46,652 nucleotides of DNA from Candidatus Sulfopaludibacter sp. SbA3 (GTDB lineage Bacteria > Acidobacteriota > Terriglobia > Bryobacterales > Bryobacteraceae). The notes beneath the pieces are model-generated. The model did no database searches, was not told where the DNA came from, and saw only the letters and a program-made list of their open reading frames with translations. The stretch is from positions 1 to 46,652 of the forward strand of contig CAMATG010000004.1 of NCBI GenBank assembly GCA_945860645.1, in the 5' to 3' direction. This document shows, piece after piece, positions 9,063 to 40,130 of the stretch. Position numbers and translations under genes: made by a program. The stretch's first letter is position 1, and each line of letters opens with the position of its first letter.

Positions 9063-9222
9063 TGGTGAACTCCAGAGGTATTTGGGGGACAACCTCATTC
9101 TGCGGAGCGGGCCTGCTTCGGTCACTCAACTGGAAGTACTCAAACTTAGTTACATTTTTCAGTTGGGCGGGTAGGACTAACGGGTGGGAGACCCGTACTA
9201 GTGCGTATTTGTTTTCAAATAG
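9063..9222. other. Intergenic region with two small inverted repeats
   Basis: The region separates the pduO stop from the GT2 start; both genes lie on the minus strand, so the GT2 promoter should be here. ATTTG-TTTT-CAAAT (9207-9220) lies next to the pduO stop, and ACGGGT-GGGAG-ACCCGT (9180-9196) follows. Neither has a T-run that would make it a convincing terminator. No strong -35/-10 pair was recognised. Confidence 0.4.
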
Positions 9223-32035: not shown

Positions 32036-33232
32036 TTACCGCGCATTCCCCGAGGTCGTCCGCAAGTCCGGCAGCGCCAGTAATAGCGCCAGCGCAATCA
32101 CCACCGCGCCCGTCCAATACGGCGAACTAGGCCCATATTTGTCGAATACGAAGCCCGCCCACGCCGGCCCCGCCACCCGTGTCAGGCTCAGCACACTCTG
32201 CGTTGTACCCAAAATACTTCCCTGCTCATTCGCCGCCGATCGCTGCGAAATCATCGCATTTAACGTCGGGTTCGTAAACGAACTCCCCACCGCCACCAAC
32301 GCCACCCCCGGGAACAGCCACACCGCCGCCGGCGCAAACGCCACCAGCAGGAACCCCGCGAAGAACAAGACAAACCCTTGGATCGCCATCGCCCGCTCGC
32401 CCAGCACCGGCATCAACTTCCGCACCACAACACCCTGCATCAGTGCCGCCAGCAGGCCGATAAACGCAAACACCCACGCGTTGTCATCCGGCCCGAACTG
32501 GAACCGCTCAATCGTGTAGTTCGAAAAATTCGTCTGCAACGCCGCGAACGCAAAGTTCAAAAAGAACAGCGCCAGCAAAAACATCCGGATCTCCCGCCGC
32601 CCCAGCGCCCCGGCCACCGACCGCAGCGGATTCGCCTCCGCCGCCGAAATAAGACCCGTCTTCCGCCGCTCCACCGGCAGCGTCTCCGGGAACATGAAGT
32701 ACCCAAAGGTCGCCGTCACCAACCCAATTACGCCCGCGCCATACGCCGGCGCCTGAATGCTGATCTTGCTCAACAACCCGCCCAGCGCCGGACCAATAAT
32801 GAAGCCCAGTCCGAACGCCATGCCGATCAACCCAAAGTTCTTCGCCCGGTCTTCCGGCTTGCTGGTATCGGCAATCGCCGCCATCGCGGTGGAGATATTC
32901 CCGCCCGTCGCCCCGTCCACAATCCGCGCCAGGAACATCACCCACAGCGACCCGGCCCAGCCGAACAGAAAGTACCCAAACGCCGACCCGACGATGGAAA
33001 ACAGCAGCACCGGCCGCCGCCCCACCCGGTCGCTCAGCGCCCCCAGCACCGGCGCCGCCACGAACTGTGCCAGAGAAAACGACACCGCCAGCATGCCCAC
33101 AGTAAACGCATCCGACCGGAACTGCCGCACCAGGTACGGCATGATGGGGATCAGAATCCCGGCGCCCAGCAAATCCAGGAAGACGGTAAGAAAAACGAAA
33201 GTCAGCGTACGCCGCTGTTGGGCCTCTTGCAT
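32036..33232 (-). CDS. MFS efflux transporter, TetA-like
   Basis: 398 residues with about twelve membrane helices. Motif A in the loop between helices 2 and 3 is GALSDRVGRRPVLLFS, and the helix-5 motif C-like stretch GMAFGLGFIIGPALGG is typical of 12-helix antiporters of the DHA1/TetA group. The first helix has the VFLDLLGAGILIPIMPYL pattern. Proton-driven efflux of drugs or metabolites is the likely role, without a known substrate. ATG at 33232 is preferred over the GTG three bases earlier. It is 62 bases upstream of rpoN on the same strand; that gap could contain the rpoN promoter. Confidence 0.9.
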   Translation of the reverse strand: MQEAQQRRTLTFVFLTVFLDLLGAGILIPIMPYLVRQFRSDAFTVGMLAVSFSLAQFVAAPVLGALSDRVGRRPVLLFSIVGSAFGYFLFGWAGSLWVMFLARIVDGATGGNISTAMAAIADTSKPEDRAKNFGLIGMAFGLGFIIGPALGGLLSKISIQAPAYGAGVIGLVTATFGYFMFPETLPVERRKTGLISAAEANPLRSVAGALGRREIRMFLLALFFLNFAFAALQTNFSNYTIERFQFGPDDNAWVFAFIGLLAALMQGVVVRKLMPVLGERAMAIQGFVLFFAGFLLVAFAPAAVWLFPGVALVAVGSSFTNPTLNAMISQRSAANEQGSILGTTQSVLSLTRVAGPAWAGFVFDKYGPSSPYWTGAVVIALALLLALPDLRTTSGNAR

Positions 33233-33261
33233 CACCCTCTAGTCTCTCATCCCCACCCCCC

Positions 33262-33390
33262 CAATTCGGTGCCACTCACTGTTATCCCCCGTAATTCCCG
33301 GAACAATTCGACAACTCTCGCCAAATCAATACGGTACGGCCATTTTCGGAAGCCCGAAAAATGACCCCACTCGCCCCACCCCCCAAATAA
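33262..33390. repeat. Dispersed intergenic repeat, copy 1
   Basis: The first 37 bases (33262-33298) match 39218-39253 except for one gap and three or so changes; the shared core is CGGTGCCACTCACTGTTATC followed by five C. A weaker similarity continues for about 90 bases and ends in a C-rich CCACCCCCC-AAAT stretch in both copies. Both copies face the same way and lie past the 3' end of a minus-strand gene. Confidence 0.6.
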
Positions 33391-33421
33391 AAAGGGCCGC
33401 GCAACCTCCCGATTGCGCGGC
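33385..33421 (-). terminator. Intrinsic terminator of the DUF1800-DUF1501 operon
   Basis: On the minus strand GCCGCGCAA and TTGCGCGGC form a perfect 9-base stem with an 8-base loop, followed at once by CCTTTTTATTT. It lies about 130 bases beyond the DUF1501 stop and is the best intrinsic terminator in this part of the window. Confidence 0.8.
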
Positions 33422-33553
33422 GTCATGGCTTGCCTAACCCGGAGCCCGGCCGAATCCTTCAACCAGCCCCGGTAGCAAAAAATTGTGAAGCAAGCGGAGC
33501 GTCCTTGCCCCGCCCCTGCTCCAACCACCCGCCGCAGGCGAGTGGCCCCCTCC

Positions 33554-34897
33554 CTACCGCATAAACCCGATATTCGGATTCGTGAAATTGCGCAGGTTAG
33601 GAAAAACGGTATTCAAATCCCCGGAACCCAGGCCGAACCACGCGCCCATCGTAGCCGCGTATTGGTCCAATCCCGTGCTCGGAATCCACAACCCCCGGCT
33701 CCCGGCATCATCCGGGCCGCGTAAAGCATGCGTCGGGAAAGTCCCGTACGCCTCGCCGCCCTTCACCGATCCGCCCAGGACAAAGTGATGGCTGCCCCAC
33801 GCATGGTCCGATCCATTGGAACTGGACGGATTCCCCGTGCGGCCAAACTCACTCTCCGTGAAAATCGTAGTCTCGTTCGCGAGCTGGAGGTCCGTCTCCA
33901 GCGACGTGTAAAACGCCCCAATCGCCGCATCTAACTGTCCCATCAGATTGTCGTGCGTCGGCAACTGGTCGCTATGATTGTCGAATCCGCCCATCCCGCA
34001 GAAGAAAATCTGCTTGTTCATCCCCAGGGCACCGCGTACTCGCATCACTGTCGCTACTTGTTGCAATTGACGGCCCAAACCAGTCTGCGGGAAAACCGTC
34101 GTCAACGGCGTTCCGCTCGCCAGCGCCGCATTAATCGCCTGCGCCCCCCGCACCGCCGATGTCATCACACCGCTCGCCGCCCCGATCATCTGCATCCCCG
34201 TATCAAACGTTAACAGTTGCTGCAGCCCCGCTTCCCGCGCGTTCATCGCCGTCGAATTGCCAAATCGCGACAATCCCAACGCCGTTCCCGGCGTCAAATT
34301 CAACGGCCGCGCCGTCGCCCCCTGCAACAACGCAGCCGACCCGTTCACCGACACTCCCATCGGAAACGTCGACGCATTCGCCCCAGCCAGCAAATCCGCC
34401 ATCCGGCCGCCCCACCCCGATCCCCCCGATACCGTCGGGTTCGCCGTCTGCCACTGGGAAGTTTGGTCGGAGTGCGAGTAAAGATTACGCGGTAAAGTTG
34501 CCCCGTTCAGATTCGCCTTCGTCGTCGGCTGCACCAGCGTCCCCACGTTGAAAACCATCGCCGCTTTCTGCTGGTTGTAAAGCCGTTGGACGTTCGTCAG
34601 ACGCGGGTGCAGGCCATACGGCACCTGCCCCCCGCCCGCCGCCACCGGCAGCAGCACATTCGAAGCCAGCGCGATATTCGGCCGCATCGCCTGATAAGCC
34701 GAATACCGCGCCGCGTCCAGCGGGATGATCATGTTGTTGGCATCATTCCCGCCGAAAAGAAAGACGCATACCAGCGCCTTATAATTCGGCGAGCTCTGCG
34801 CCATCGCCGAAATCTCGCCCAGCCGCAGCATGTGCGCGCCGGCCCCCGCCGCCGCCAGGGAGCCGCAGGATCGTAAAAAGTTCCGTCTCGTGTTCAT
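33554..34897 (-). CDS. DUF1501 protein with twin-arginine signal
   Basis: 447 residues. The start MNTRRNFLRSCGSLAAAGAGAH is a Tat signal, so the protein folds in the cytoplasm before export. The body has the DUF1501 pattern: LVCVFLFGGNDANNMIIPLD, then YSHSDQTSQWQTANP, FCGMGGFDNHSDQL, ETTIFTESEFGRTGNPSSSNGSDHAWGSHHFVLG. The conserved Asp/His/Glu set resembles metal sites of sulfatase or phosphatase folds. The family function is unknown. It follows the DUF1800 gene after 9 bases with GGAG upstream; the two families are commonly encoded side by side and are presumed to act together. Confidence 0.93.
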   Translation of the reverse strand: MNTRRNFLRSCGSLAAAGAGAHMLRLGEISAMAQSSPNYKALVCVFLFGGNDANNMIIPLDAARYSAYQAMRPNIALASNVLLPVAAGGGQVPYGLHPRLTNVQRLYNQQKAAMVFNVGTLVQPTTKANLNGATLPRNLYSHSDQTSQWQTANPTVSGGSGWGGRMADLLAGANASTFPMGVSVNGSAALLQGATARPLNLTPGTALGLSRFGNSTAMNAREAGLQQLLTFDTGMQMIGAASGVMTSAVRGAQAINAALASGTPLTTVFPQTGLGRQLQQVATVMRVRGALGMNKQIFFCGMGGFDNHSDQLPTHDNLMGQLDAAIGAFYTSLETDLQLANETTIFTESEFGRTGNPSSSNGSDHAWGSHHFVLGGSVKGGEAYGTFPTHALRGPDDAGSRGLWIPSTGLDQYAATMGAWFGLGSGDLNTVFPNLRNFTNPNIGFMR

Positions 34898-34906
34898 AAG
34901 GTCTCC

Positions 34907-37900
34907 TTAGTGCTCCACCTGAAATTGCGAAGAAGTAAACGCCAGATAAAACGCGGTCATGACTTTTTCCCGCGCCGTCGGCGCCGCCTGGATCGCGGTG
35001 ATCATCGCCCCCCGCGCCTCCGCCGATAACGTCCCGCCGAACGCCAGCAGGTCGATCCGGTTCACCAACGCCCCCGAATCGGCCGCCAACGCCTCCCACG
35101 GCGCGAAGTTCAGCGTTACCGCACTGCCAAACCCGCCCGAAACCAGCCGCGCCACGAAGTTCGCCCGCGTCATCCCCGTCGCCGTCGTGTACAACTGGAA
35201 TTCCGGAGCCGTCAACGTCGTCCCCGCGATCCGGAAGTTCGGCGAATAGTAGTTGAAAACGGAGGGCGAATGGAAGATCCGCTGCCCCATGTCGGTACTC
35301 AAATCGGACATGAACGGATAGTCCGCCACGTTCCCGCCAATCGCCCGCAACTGCCGCGTGATGAACAGCGAAGGCTCGGCCAGCTTGCCCGCCGTCGGCG
35401 CGGTCAGCTGCGCTTCCGGGTGCGTCAGGATCGCCTTCACCACCGCCCGCAAGTCCCCGCGAACCCCGCTGCCGTTGTTCGCAAAAACCGCGGCGACAGC
35501 CCCGATATATGCCGGACTCGGGTTCGAAGTCACCAGCCGCTGAATCAGCTGCCGCGAAATGAACGGACCCACATTCGCGTGCCGGAAAATGATCCCCAGC
35601 GCGTTGTCCAGGTCCTGCTGCGCCGTCATCGCCGGCGGCACATCGGTCCCCAGGAACCGCTTCGCCCCCGTGTCGTGGAACGCCTCAACAGCCTCCATCG
35701 GCCCGTCATACCGCGCCGGGTTCAACTTCGTCGGCTGCCCCGCCACCGCGTCCGGATACGTCCAGCCCGTAAACACCCGCGCCAGTTCCAGCACATCGTC
35801 CTGGCCATACGTCGCCGCCGCCGGCGCCTTCGCCGACCCATCCGGATTCAGCTCCGCCAGCCCGATCGTGAACAACTGCAGAACCTCTCGTGAGAAGTTC
35901 TCATTCGGCAGAATCGTCCCGTTGCTCTTCTTGTTGTTCACCATGTCCAGGTACTCCCCCATCGCCGGATGCATCGTGCCATCCCGCATCAGGTCGTAGA
36001 AGTTCCCAAACGCGTGGCCCTGCAGCATCCGGATCCACGGCACCATCGCGTCGGCCCGCACCAGCTCCACGCCGCTAACGACCCAGATCTGGCTCAACGC
36101 CCACGCCACCCGTTGCCGCAACTGGTCGTTGCCCGTCAACGCCAGCTGGAAGAAGTGCTCCTCGGTCCACTCCATGTTCTGCGTCAACAGCGTGTCCGGA
36201 TACACCGACGGCGTCGCCGCGAACTGCTCGTTAATCCAAGCATCCACGCCCATCGCCTTCAGCCGGTCAAAATCCGCCTGCGTCGGCCCCCACGTCGCCT
36301 GCCGCAACAAGCGCCATAGCGCCTGATCGGCCGCGGAAGTCACCACCGGAGGCGTTATCGGAGCCTCCGGCCTGGCCGAAACCTCAGCCGACCGCGTCCC
36401 GATCCCGCCCGTATTCACGCCCGCCACCTTGTAGTAGTACGTGGTCCCATTCACCAGTCCCGTGTTCACGAAGGTGGGCGCCGTCAACCCCGTCACCACC
36501 GGCGTCGCGGATTGCCCGCCCGCCGTCGTCCCGCGATAGACGTTGTACGTCACCGCCCCGCTCACCGCCGTCCAGCTCAGCGTCACCTGCAGGTTCCCCG
36601 GCATGGCCGACACATTCACCGGCGCCGATGGCGGCAAGACCGGAGCCTTCGGCGTCGCCGTCGCTTCGTTCGACCGCGTGCCAACTCCGCCCGCGTTCAC
36701 GCCGGCGACTTTATAGAAATACGCCGTCCCGTTCACAACCGTCGCATCCAGATACGAGGTCCCCGTCACGCCAGTCGCCACCGGCGTCGCCGCCTGCGCT
36801 CCCGTGGCCGTCCCCCGATACACGTTGTAGGATGTGGCCCCCGTCACCCCGCCCCAGTTCAGCGTGACTTTCGCGTCACCCGGAGCAGCCGTCAAATTAG
36901 CCGGCGCCCCCACCGGCAGCGGAGCCGCCGAGGCTTCATTCGAAGCACCACTCGTCCCGCCGAGATTCACGGAAACGACTTTGTAGAAATACGTGACCCC
37001 GTTCAGCCCCGTCATATCGGCGTAGTTCGTCGCCGTCACGCCCGTCGCCAACGGCGCCGTCGCTTGCGCGCCAGACGCTGTTCCGCGATACACGCTATAG
37101 GAAGCCGCGCCACTCCCGCCGCTCCACTGCAGCGTAATCTTCCCAACAGCGCCCGTCGCCGTCAGGTTCCCCGGCACCCCGGGCGGCTGCACCGCCGCGG
37201 GCTTCGCGCTGGCCTCATTGCTCCGCGCACCAATCCCGCCCGTGTTCACACCCGAGACTTTGTAGAAGTACGTAGTGCCATTCGCCACCCCCGTATCGGT
37301 GTACCCCGTCCCGCCAATCCCCATCGCCACCGGCGTGGCAGCCTGTGCCCCCGCCGCCGTCCCGCGATAGACGTTGTAGGAGGTGGCGCCAGTCGCCGCG
37401 CGCCACGCCAGCGTCACCTTCGCATTCCCCGCCGCCGCCGTCAGCGTCCCCGGCGCACCCGGTACAGTCACCTCCGGAGGCGGCGTCCCGTCCAGAATCC
37501 GATATAGCCGCGCACCGGCCCAATCGGCATGGTCAGAGCCAATGCCGTCTCCGGCATCGCCCACCACCAGCTTCAGCATCGTCACGCCCGTAATGTTCAG
37601 GTCAACCCGCCGCGCGGACATCCCCTGCGTCATCCGCACCGTCTCAAACAGCTTCGTGCCGTCGCCAAACACCTGAAATACGACGGACCCGCGCCCGCCG
37701 CCCACCTCGTCATCCACCCCCACATCGGCCACAAACCGCTGGAACGCCTTGTTCACGTTGAAGGCCACTTCAGACGCCGAGTGCACCCCCAGCCCGTACG
37801 TGAACTTCCGCCCGGCGATCGAAATCTGCTTCCCATCGGCCGCCATCTGCTCCCCGTTGCTCATATCCCGCTCCACCGGCCCCCAGCCGGATCGCGCGCT

Positions 37901-38890
37901 CTGCCACGCCAGTTCGCTCAGGTACGGGTCCGGATCCGGCGTCGGTGTCGGCTTCGGTCCCCCGCTCTGCACAATCACATGCGCATCCGCCCAATTGGCC
38001 CGGTCCATGGTGTTCCCATCCCCACCATTCCGCACCACCAGCCGCAGCTCGTTGCGCCCCGTCACATCCACCCGCGCAAACTGCCCCGCCGTGCTTCCCC
38101 GCTGCAACGCGCTATCCCACGCCAGCGTGCCATCCACCCAAATCTCAAACACAACCGATCCTTGCGACCCGGCCGAATCATCAATCCCCACCGTCGCCCG
38201 GAAGTCGTCGTATAGCCGGTTCAGCTTGTAGACAACCTCGTTGTCCCCGGTAACCGCCAGCCCCTTGGCAAAGGAAACCCCCGCCACCGACAACGGCTGC
38301 CCGCTCCGCGCGTCCAGCTCCACCGGCGTCGTCTTCCGCGCCATCGCCATATCGCTCAGGTAGTCCACCCGGTCCGGCACAAACAGCCGCGCCTGCGGAA
38401 TCGTCTGCTCCGGCTGCCCCGGATACGCCCACAGCAGCCGTACCGACGCCGATCCCAAGCCCTCGAAATACTCCAACTTCACCGAGTACCGCACCCCCGC
38501 CGTCAGCTTGATCGGCGTCCCGCGCCGTAGCGTCGGCGGATGGTCCTGCCAATCGTCCACCAGCAACCGCCCATTCACCCACAAGCGAACCCCGTCATCG
38601 GCGTTGGTGGCAAAGGTGTAGTCCCCGGTAACGGGCGCCTCCACCTCCCCGGTCCACCGGACCGAGAACCCGTCGGCGGGGACCTCGGCAAACGGGGACT
38701 TCATGCCCCAATCGAACTGGATCGTCCGATCCGTCCGGCGCAGTTTCACACTGCCAGAAAGGTCTTTCGTGGCGTAATAGTCGCCATAAAGGCCAGTGCC
38801 TTTGGCGGTCGCGGGCGTAACAGCCCAGGTGGGAATGGGTGCCAGGGAGAGCACAGCCATCCCGATCAGCAGCGTCCGTGCAGCTATCAA
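34907..38890 (-). CDS. Large exported PA14-NPCBM-FN3-DUF1800 protein
   Basis: 1327 residues from a TTG start with GGAGGA six bases upstream; signal peptide MIAARTLLIGMAVLSLAPIPTWA. Domains in order: PA14 (about 33-170, GDYTFATNADDGVRLWVNG); NPCBM-like (about 178-310, ARSGQPLSVAGVSFAKGL); a second NPCBM-like (about 323-465, FTYGLGVHSASEVAFNV); four fibronectin type III repeats (about 473-847); DUF1800 (about 850-1327, LLRQATWGPTQADFDRL, GYLD-type MGEYLDMVNNKK and FNYYSPNFRIAGT). PA14 and NPCBM bind carbohydrates, so a surface glycan is a likely target. It heads an operon with DUF1501 behind a sigma-54-type promoter. Confidence 0.9.
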   Translation of the reverse strand: MIAARTLLIGMAVLSLAPIPTWAVTPATAKGTGLYGDYYATKDLSGSVKLRRTDRTIQFDWGMKSPFAEVPADGFSVRWTGEVEAPVTGDYTFATNADDGVRLWVNGRLLVDDWQDHPPTLRRGTPIKLTAGVRYSVKLEYFEGLGSASVRLLWAYPGQPEQTIPQARLFVPDRVDYLSDMAMARKTTPVELDARSGQPLSVAGVSFAKGLAVTGDNEVVYKLNRLYDDFRATVGIDDSAGSQGSVVFEIWVDGTLAWDSALQRGSTAGQFARVDVTGRNELRLVVRNGGDGNTMDRANWADAHVIVQSGGPKPTPTPDPDPYLSELAWQSARSGWGPVERDMSNGEQMAADGKQISIAGRKFTYGLGVHSASEVAFNVNKAFQRFVADVGVDDEVGGGRGSVVFQVFGDGTKLFETVRMTQGMSARRVDLNITGVTMLKLVVGDAGDGIGSDHADWAGARLYRILDGTPPPEVTVPGAPGTLTAAAGNAKVTLAWRAATGATSYNVYRGTAAGAQAATPVAMGIGGTGYTDTGVANGTTYFYKVSGVNTGGIGARSNEASAKPAAVQPPGVPGNLTATGAVGKITLQWSGGSGAASYSVYRGTASGAQATAPLATGVTATNYADMTGLNGVTYFYKVVSVNLGGTSGASNEASAAPLPVGAPANLTAAPGDAKVTLNWGGVTGATSYNVYRGTATGAQAATPVATGVTGTSYLDATVVNGTAYFYKVAGVNAGGVGTRSNEATATPKAPVLPPSAPVNVSAMPGNLQVTLSWTAVSGAVTYNVYRGTTAGGQSATPVVTGLTAPTFVNTGLVNGTTYYYKVAGVNTGGIGTRSAEVSARPEAPITPPVVTSAADQALWRLLRQATWGPTQADFDRLKAMGVDAWINEQFAATPSVYPDTLLTQNMEWTEEHFFQLALTGNDQLRQRVAWALSQIWVVSGVELVRADAMVPWIRMLQGHAFGNFYDLMRDGTMHPAMGEYLDMVNNKKSNGTILPNENFSREVLQLFTIGLAELNPDGSAKAPAAATYGQDDVLELARVFTGWTYPDAVAGQPTKLNPARYDGPMEAVEAFHDTGAKRFLGTDVPPAMTAQQDLDNALGIIFRHANVGPFISRQLIQRLVTSNPSPAYIGAVAAVFANNGSGVRGDLRAVVKAILTHPEAQLTAPTAGKLAEPSLFITRQLRAIGGNVADYPFMSDLSTDMGQRIFHSPSVFNYYSPNFRIAGTTLTAPEFQLYTTATGMTRANFVARLVSGGFGSAVTLNFAPWEALAADSGALVNRIDLLAFGGTLSAEARGAMITAIQAAPTAREKVMTAFYLAFTSSQFQVEH
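36350..37470 (-). repeat. Four tandem FN3-coding repeats
   Basis: Four units of roughly 275-285 bases encode fibronectin type III domains. Strings such as GATSYNVYRGTA-GAQAATPVA and YFYKV-GVNTGGIG-RSNEASA recur with few changes, showing recent duplication. The unit number may vary between strains by recombination. Confidence 0.75.
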
Positions 38891-38930
38891 TCGGTCCTCC
38901 AGGTCAATTCATTGACTCTGGCCCTTCTAG

Positions 38931-38945
38931 GCAATCCATGTGCCG
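38931..38945 (-). promoter_or_regulatory. Sigma-54 (-24/-12) promoter of the DUF1800-DUF1501 operon
   Basis: The minus strand reads CGGCACATGGATTGC. Against TGGCAC-N5-TTGC only the first base differs, and the GG-to-GC spacing is exact. Transcription would start near 38919, about 29 bases before the TTG start codon. A perfect inverted repeat GTCAAT-GA-ATTGAC (38903-38916) lies in the leader just before the ribosome-binding site. Confidence 0.6.
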
Positions 38946-39003
38946 TTTTACAGCCGTGTGACAGAATGTCCCATCGGGCCTTAGAGGCCTATTCAGCAAC
39001 ACA

Positions 39004-39023
39004 TGTAATGTCAACACGTTACA
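39004..39023. promoter_or_regulatory. Candidate upstream activator site for the sigma-54 promoter
   Basis: TGTAATGTCAACACGTTACA has 8-base arms, seven of which pair exactly, around a 4-base centre. It lies at about -85 to -104 relative to the predicted start near 38919, the usual place for a dimeric enhancer-binding protein. A second palindrome, GGCCT-TAG-AGGCC (38977-38989), lies nearer the promoter. Confidence 0.45.
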
Positions 39024-39217
39024 AACATCAAGAACACTTTAGCTCTCCGCCCCTCGAAGTACTGTGTGACAAAATTACCCAATCGCTCCGGCCAATGAAG
39101 GTAAATCCTTCTCGGTACCCGGACCCTACACCACCAAATTAGGGACAGTCACCGCAATTACCGAATTTATCCTACCCCCATTCCCCTCCCGCCCAATCGG
39201 TGCCCCCAATCGGCCCC

Positions 39218-39343
39218 CAATCGGTGCCACTCACTGTTATCCCCCACAATTCCGCACGAAAACCAATAACCATCGATCTTGCAATCACTTGCAGGCCATT
39301 TCGACGCCCCCAAAAACCACCCCACCCCCGCCACCCCCCTAAA
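39218..39343. repeat. Dispersed intergenic repeat, copy 2
   Basis: This is the partner of 33262-33390 in the same orientation, sharing the core CGGTGCCACTCACTGTTATC followed by five C and a similar C-rich end. Here the end of the repeat runs into the fdhD stop codon. It is preceded by three short tandem CCCAATCGG units. Confidence 0.6.
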
Positions 39344-40130
39344 TCTCCCGCACCCTCCACGTCCCCGCATACACATTCGCCCGATCCCCCCGCAAGAAAC
39401 CTACCAACGTCACATTCGCATGCCGCGCCAGTTCCACCGACAGCGTTGTCGGCGCCCCCATCGCCGCCACCAACGGCACCCCCGCCCGCGCCGCCTTATG
39501 CACCAACTCAAACCCCGCCCGCCCGCTCAACAACAACCCCATCCCCTCCAACGGCAACCGCCCCTCCTGCATCGCCCACCCCACCAACTTATCCACCGCG
39601 TTATGCCGCCCCACATCCTCCCGCACCGCAATCAAAGCCCCGGAAGAATCAAACAACGCCGCCGCATGCACCCCGCCAGTCTCCCGGAACTGCCCCTGCC
39701 GCGCCTCTAAAGCCGCAGGCAACCCCGCCAACACCCCCCAACTCACCCGAAACCCCGCATCCCCCAACGCCTCCGTCACCGGCAAATCCGGCGACCCGCA
39801 AAACCCACAAGCCGCCGTCGCCGCCCGCGCCCGCCCCAGGTCCAAATCCACATGCGAAGCCAGCGATAGCCGCACCCGCCCGGCATCCAAACAAGTCACA
39901 TCCAAAACGTCCGAAGCCCCCGCAATCCGCCCCTCGGAATACAACAACCCCAGCGCCAGCTCCTCATCCTGCCCCGGCGTCCGCAGCGTAATTCCCCACG
40001 CCGCCACCCGCCGCTGGTCTTTAAACGAGTGCTCAATCAGCACCTCCAGCGGCGCCTCGTCGGCCAGCCAATCATCCTCCGCGCGCGGCCCGCCGGCACC
40101 CCAGCGCTCGACGGGCACACGCCGCGGCAT
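39339..40130 (-). CDS. fdhD: Formate dehydrogenase accessory sulfurtransferase FdhD
   Basis: 263 residues. FdhD passes sulfur from IscS to the molybdenum or tungsten cofactor of formate dehydrogenase. The sulfur-carrying motif CGFCG is present (AACGFCGSPDL), along with FRETGGVHAAALF, REDVGRHNAVDKLVGW and LLLSGRAGFELVHKAARAGVP. The gene starts 3 bases after the isomerase stop, so cotranscription is likely. No formate dehydrogenase or cofactor gene lies in the window. Confidence 0.95.
   Translation of the reverse strand: MPRRVPVERWGAGGPRAEDDWLADEAPLEVLIEHSFKDQRRVAAWGITLRTPGQDEELALGLLYSEGRIAGASDVLDVTCLDAGRVRLSLASHVDLDLGRARAATAACGFCGSPDLPVTEALGDAGFRVSWGVLAGLPAALEARQGQFRETGGVHAAALFDSSGALIAVREDVGRHNAVDKLVGWAMQEGRLPLEGMGLLLSGRAGFELVHKAARAGVPLVAAMGAPTTLSVELARHANVTLVGFLRGDRANVYAGTWRVREI

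Follow-up and report, generated by a model that had tools for sequence, protein, structure and literature searches.

On the minus strand of the window (the whole stretch of DNA that was analysed, 46,652 nucleotides long, which is contig C4 of its own genome, G000; 6.5 Mb, 75.6% complete), the gene order is fdhD, a gap of 448 bases, a DUF1800 gene, a DUF1501 gene and a terminator (Table 1). The last two genes are adjacent, with 9 bases between them and with Pfam DUF1800 and DUF1501 domains, and make up a DUF1800-DUF1501 operon; its products are predicted from their sequences to be exported proteins of a sugar-binding type. The GGAGGA motif and the TTG start that the preliminary description placed before the long gene are present and common to six genus orthologues, and the strong terminator reported at the end of the operon is likewise there, as an 11-pair stem with a T run.

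The PDB relatives of the long protein (18 sequences, PA14, fn3 and carbohydrate-binding chains among them) match only stretches that precede the DUF1800 domain, and the DUF1501 protein has no sequence relative in the PDB at E 0.01. Among named records, the long protein has its closest relatives in MAGs whose titles read Acidobacteria, Bryobacteraceae or Candidatus Solibacter; several bear lake-like isolate names, and the family name used here rests on these titles. A Bryobacteraceae-type orthologue was also found in a record titled Bordetella parapertussis (L057, CALQCC020000027.1), a title that looks wrong.

Annotation assigns no known function to DUF1800-DUF1501 pairs, and learning what switches them on would provide a first handle on them. 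The available part of one paper describes such pairs as adjoining chitin synthase genes, their function being unknown (PMC5122149), and the main text of another, as far as it was available, contains no word beginning with acidobacteri (PMC12316311). Among the matches listed by the literature search, DUF1501, DUF1800, PF07394 and PF08811 occur in no title or abstract, and no title deals with the control of these genes.

Table 1. Features of the DUF1800-DUF1501 locus (positions in the window).
Feature	Position	Strand	Remarks
fdhD, upstream neighbour of the DUF1800 gene	39339..40130	-	also in G161, G154, G113, G153 and G158
Degenerate second copy of the proximal palindrome, TGGGTAATTTTGTCACAC	39064..39081	-	108 bases upstream of the first
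Distal bipartite element, CACAGTACT-N12-GAGCTA	39040..39066	-	exact spacing in six genomes; includes AGTACT
20-base inverted repeat, TGTAACGTGTTGACATTACA	39004..39023	-	7/8 arm pairs, counted by eye
Palindrome, GGCCTCTAAGGCC	38977..38989	-	counterpart in G161; GCCTTATAAGGC in G152 and G154
Proximal palindrome, GGGACATTCTGTCAC	38958..38972	-	GACA-N3-TGTC present in 6/7 genus orthologues, window included
-24/-12-like box, CGGCACATGGATTGC	38931..38945	-	GG-N10-GC; core extends to the dyad GGCA-N7-TGCC (38944-38930)
Ribosome-binding site, GGAGGA	38895..38900	-	precedes TTG at 38890
PA14 - NPCBM - fn3 - DUF1800 protein gene	34907..38890	-	1327 aa; TTG start; signal-peptide-like N-terminus by eye
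DUF1501 protein gene	33554..34897	-	447 aa; twin-arginine-type N-terminus by eye
Intrinsic terminator of the operon	33396..33421	-	11-pair stem and T run

Upstream elements and their conservation in the genus

The genus sample comprised 19 genomes, the window's own included and some of them incomplete. Seven contain the long orthologue (G000, G161, G154, G152, G113, G153 and G158), with proteins 61-92% identical to that of the window, the highest value belonging to the closest sister, G161. In two MAGs the gene is divided between contigs (C282 and C183 in G113, C55 and C252 in G153), probably by an assembly break at the repeated domains. The order OGT, TIM-barrel gene, fdhD and DUF1800 gene is the same in G161, G154, G113, G153 and G158, and no regulator gene occurs among the scanned neighbours OGT, TIM barrel and FdhD.

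The upstream regions of six of these orthologues were aligned, G158 being omitted as too different; six sequences are few, and those of G113 and G153 are nearly identical in the region. Three blocks are invariant in this alignment, namely CAC-GTACT-N12-GAGCTA (consensus CACRGTACT-N12-GAGCTA), GACA-N3-TGTC and A-GGC-N6-ATTGCCTA. The distance from GTACT to GGC amounts to 118 bases in G000 and G161, 117 in G113, G154 and G153 and 107 in G152, where the shortening is about one helical turn and lies wholly between the palindrome and GGC (16 versus 27 bases, start to start), while the interval between GGC and the ribosome-binding site is variable, at 44 to 73 bases. The search for the -24/-12 element upstream of DUF1800 orthologues, which the preliminary description had proposed as a check, recovered GG-N10-GC with GGC and TTGC in six of the seven genus members, window included; the seventh orthologue, in G158, is devoid of the blocks and carries AAGGCACTAAAAGTGCT, a GGCAC-N6-TGC sequence, at a similar place.

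Genome-wide, the composite GACA-N3-TGTC...GGC-N7-TTGC was detected in 6 of the 19 genomes, five times at the DUF1800 gene and once elsewhere (C66 of G152), as against two matches of the reversed-pattern control; the pattern required at least five bases from TGTC to GGC, so the G152 copy at the DUF1800 gene, which has four, was missed. The distal block is found without mismatch at the DUF1800 gene of six genomes and at a second place in G152, at a contig end (C175), and with one mismatch it gave 7 matches elsewhere versus 16 for the control. Since the box and two other elements are kept in a fixed geometry, the control region is regarded as real, and it is this conservation and not the consensus match that makes the place real. 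Judged by these alignments, the DNA upstream of the operon is a conserved genus-level control region with several dyads.

In a scan for dyads, GACA-N3-TGTC was the best of 1075 centre/loop settings (27/30 pairs), and GGCA-N7-TGCC, the most palindromic point nearby, the best of 705 (26/30 pairs); both exceed their surroundings in symmetry, as is expected of dimeric operators. The latter dyad is followed by T and A, invariant in six orthologues. No counterpart of the palindrome GGCCTCTAAGGCC is present in G113 and G153. The 20-base inverted repeat, to which an enhancer-like role had been attributed, does exist, but it is recognisable, in altered form, only in the sister G161, and that role is unsupported.

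For the proximal palindrome, a candidate role as a site of the BlaI/MecI type or the NorR type was considered. A regulon with GGGACA-N3-TGTCNC as its mark was tried and rejected, with three matches each in G000 and G161 versus one each in the control; one of the matches in these genomes lies at the DUF1800 gene, another pair looks coding and the third pair may not be orthologous. Rfam gave no match in 38800-39400 up to E 5, by which a known RNA leader family was rejected, and 33200-39400 yielded no sigma-70 consensus pair.

The -24/-12-like box and the reading of the region

Sigma-54 promoters follow the consensus YTGGCACG-N4-TTGCW, in which T is favoured at -26 and A/T at -11; what they require are the GG, GC, GGC and TTGC cores in exact spacing, and a C at -11 is not required. 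The box CGGCACATGGATTGC had been described as one base away from this consensus. Its GG-N10-GC spacing is indeed exact, but it has two mismatches to TGGCACG-N4-TTGC, and the base just downstream is also off consensus, C and not A/T. Taken alone, the match is at chance level: sites with at most two mismatches to TGGCACG-N4-TTGC number 12 in the window versus 21.2 expected from shuffles, 278 of 1000 shuffles of the intergenic DNA contain a match as good as the box (9/13, with GG and GC kept fixed), and the consensus with W added and at most one mismatch occurs at 48 sites genome-wide versus 45 for the reversed pattern.

The box and its orthologues fit YTGGCACG-N4-TTGCW at only 8-10 of 13 positions, and the agreement does not extend beyond the core. 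In the six aligned orthologues C occupies -11 (6/6) and -26 (5/6), A occupies -27 (6/6), and -21/-20 drift; the invariant C at -11 is accounted for by the outer G1-C15 pair of the dyad. GG-N10-GC is by necessity present in any GGC...GCC dyad, and the box may exemplify a dyad operator that is easy to mistake for a -24/-12 promoter. The sigma-54 consensus is partly dyadic itself (3/5 pairs, hand count), so the dyad symmetry lowers the likelihood of sigma-54 and does not exclude it.

For comparison within the genome, 21 of the 48 consensus-like places were viewed, and eight that looked promoter-like, some of them overlapping open frames, were picked by eye. These likely sites reach 12-13/13, with A/T at -11 in all eight and T at -26 in seven, values that are partly circular given that the sites were chosen by consensus search. 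A pyrimidine is found at -27 in 8/8, but also in 10 of the 13 unpicked consensus-like sites, which makes the argument from -27 weak. An activator-domain gene lies within about 0.6 to 2.4 kb of three likely sites. The consensus-fitting TTTGGCACAGCGTTTGCA (G000:C3:15544), located between an rtcB-like gene and an activator-domain gene on the opposite strand (G000:C3:14424-16806; L184, L215), is likely, from its sequence and setting, to be a true sigma-54 promoter. As a yardstick of conservation, rtcB was of little use: the gene was found in 3/19 genus genomes, and its site is common to G000 and G161 (proteins 98% identical), while 260 bases of upstream sequence in G152 did not reveal it. Other consensus-like sites (L182, L186, L187) precede small genes whose starts are signal-peptide-like by about 47-65 bases, and two of these sites have activator genes nearby.

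The window does contain rpoN (31973-30411) and one activator gene (17348-16098), as had been noted, and the genome encodes AAA+ activators besides rpoN, with 20 activator-domain stretches, two of them weak. The linkage to rpoN is not supported across the genus: genes for MFS, RpoN, HPF and RapZ follow the operon in G161 only, and none appears within about 4.6 kb past DUF1501 in G154, G158 and G153; in G152 and G113 the loci are too short to reach. As rpoN is near only in the closest sister, to the extent that the loci reach, its proximity seems to be a coincidence confined to the two nearest relatives. The window's activator gene was rejected as a linked partner; it lies at a distance of about 21.6 kb, and what is probably its G161 counterpart, guessed from score and length and not from an alignment, is on another contig.

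The explanation preferred here, to which about an even chance is given, is a genus-specific control region with dimeric proteins on its dyads, a start of the sigma-70 family and an incidental sigma-54 look. The gap between fdhD and the operon would constitute this region, and one or more dimeric DNA-binding proteins would occupy the two like palindromes, about 108 bases apart, as well as the dyad GGCA-N7-TGCC. The distances among the dyads and to the bipartite, promoter-like distal element would be fixed, and the constant spacing from GTACT to GGC (117-118 bases, with G152 shorter by one turn) suggests that the proteins contact each other along a single face of the DNA. Transcription would probably proceed from a sigma-70-family promoter inside the block, the -24/-12-like look of the dyad being incidental. 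From the observed sequence, conservation, spacing and symmetry we infer the use of the dyads as operators, the sigma factor and the direction of control.

Sigma-54 control of the operon is possible but doubtful. In its specific form, which can be put forward only tentatively, RpoN polymerase would bind the box and be opened by an AAA+ activator located at the proximal palindrome and its second copy (centred near -46 and -154) rather than at the 20-base repeat. The cores shared by six of the seven genus orthologues, the similarly placed GGCAC-N6-TGC of the seventh, and rpoN with its many activator-domain stretches are consistent with this proposal; so are the distance from box to start codon, which resembles that of the likely local sites, and the precedent of a paired activator motif and -24/-12 element in the PEP-CTERM/PrsR case, as the available part of the source describes it (PMC1569441). 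It is opposed by the bases kept at -11, -26 and -27 and the drift at -21/-20, by a fit that falls short of the likely local sites (a partly circular comparison), by a match that alone is at chance level, by the strong dyad symmetry and by the lack of any site of at least 10/13 in 11 non-genus orthologues.

A start at the distal element, with the proximal palindromes as hairpins in an RNA leader of about 140 bases, is improbable: the distal element is -35/-10-like, bipartite and exactly spaced in six genomes, and the palindromes could fold, but Rfam returned no match and, by eye, the stems vary in the six-way alignment without clear compensating changes. That the box is a chance look-alike in ordinary intergenic DNA without function would agree with the chance-level match and with the 11 orthologues of other genera that have no good box, and is nevertheless very hard to believe given the invariant blocks and fixed spacing, although the proteins have diverged to the extent given above.

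The RGTACT element outside the genus

Eleven DUF1800 orthologues from outside the genus were compared over 350 bases upstream, with start codons chosen by the analyst. No GG-N10-GC occurs in 6 of the 11 and none of them reaches 10/13; together with G158, 4/12 reach 9/13 (shuffle mean 1.5, with 4 reached in 16/200 shuffles). RGTACT, on either strand, is found upstream of 17 of 18 orthologues, 10/11 non-genus and 7/7 genus (shuffle means 2.0 and 1.0), at about 50-340 bases from the gene (L032-L037, L040, L157, L167, L168 and the genus loci). The palindrome TAGTACTA is present in five of the 11 non-genus regions, in four of them at -96 to -103 (shuffle mean 0.06). Across 40 non-coding stretches of the window and 14 loci, used as a control, 16 contain RGTACT, of which 13 are DUF1800 upstream regions (two being second copies of the same contig) and three lie elsewhere. 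Within the window, RGTACT is present at 9135 and 24334, in non-coding DNA away from the DUF1800 upstream region.

The longer pattern CTAGTACTAR is rare, with 22 rows representing 18 places in six genomes (G000, G161, G125, G024, G198 and G199; L218-L235), three of them at the DUF1800 gene, versus 307 rows for a reversed-pattern control that does not include the often-avoided CTAG. Judged by eye, many of the remaining 15 places seem intergenic, some precede genes with signal-peptide-like or PilZ-like starts, and several have a second GTACTA/TAGTAC some 25-55 bases away.

RGTACT is possibly a family-wide regulatory site, to go by its recurrence upstream of these genes, and is a better lead than the sigma-54 box, being a short element that can be tested throughout a bacterial family. 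A more speculative suggestion is that an undescribed Bryobacteraceae regulon with an RGTACT/TAGTACTA palindrome might control the DUF1800-DUF1501 operon across genera together with other genes, some with signal-peptide-like N-termini, and that in the window's genus it might be overlaid by the separate multi-palindrome region mimicking a sigma-54 promoter.

Comparison with known systems

The region resembles sigma-54 -24/-12 promoters in its GG-N10-GC, GGC and TTGC cores, its upstream palindromes and the rpoN gene in the genome, and differs from them by the A at -27, the C at -26 and the C at -11, by its rigid spacing and dyad symmetry, and by having one palindrome as close as about 46 bases to the presumed start. 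The RtcR-rtcB promoter of the same genome (names given by eye from sequence likeness) shares the GG-N10-GC spacing; unlike the box, its TTTGGCACAGCGTTTGCA fits the consensus and has an activator-domain gene about 0.6 kb away. Dimeric repressors or activators whose operators consist of two in-phase palindromes form a general class, and the locus resembles it in having like palindromes about 108 bases apart in fixed helical phase.

The closest precedent, as given in the available part of its source, is that of proteobacterial PEP-CTERM genes, which are associated with an activator motif (motif 1), a sigma-54 motif (motif 2) and PrsR (PMC1569441). Common to both is an upstream motif, sometimes repeated, that together with a -24/-12-like motif precedes genes for exported proteins. 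Motif 1 of the PEP-CTERM regions, according to the same part, ends in TTTACA and is followed by a spacer of 32-92 bases, whereas here GACA-N3-TGTC and GGC begin 27 (or 16) bases apart; and, unlike the PEP-CTERM arrangement described there, the composite was found at one gene per genome, bar one stray match.
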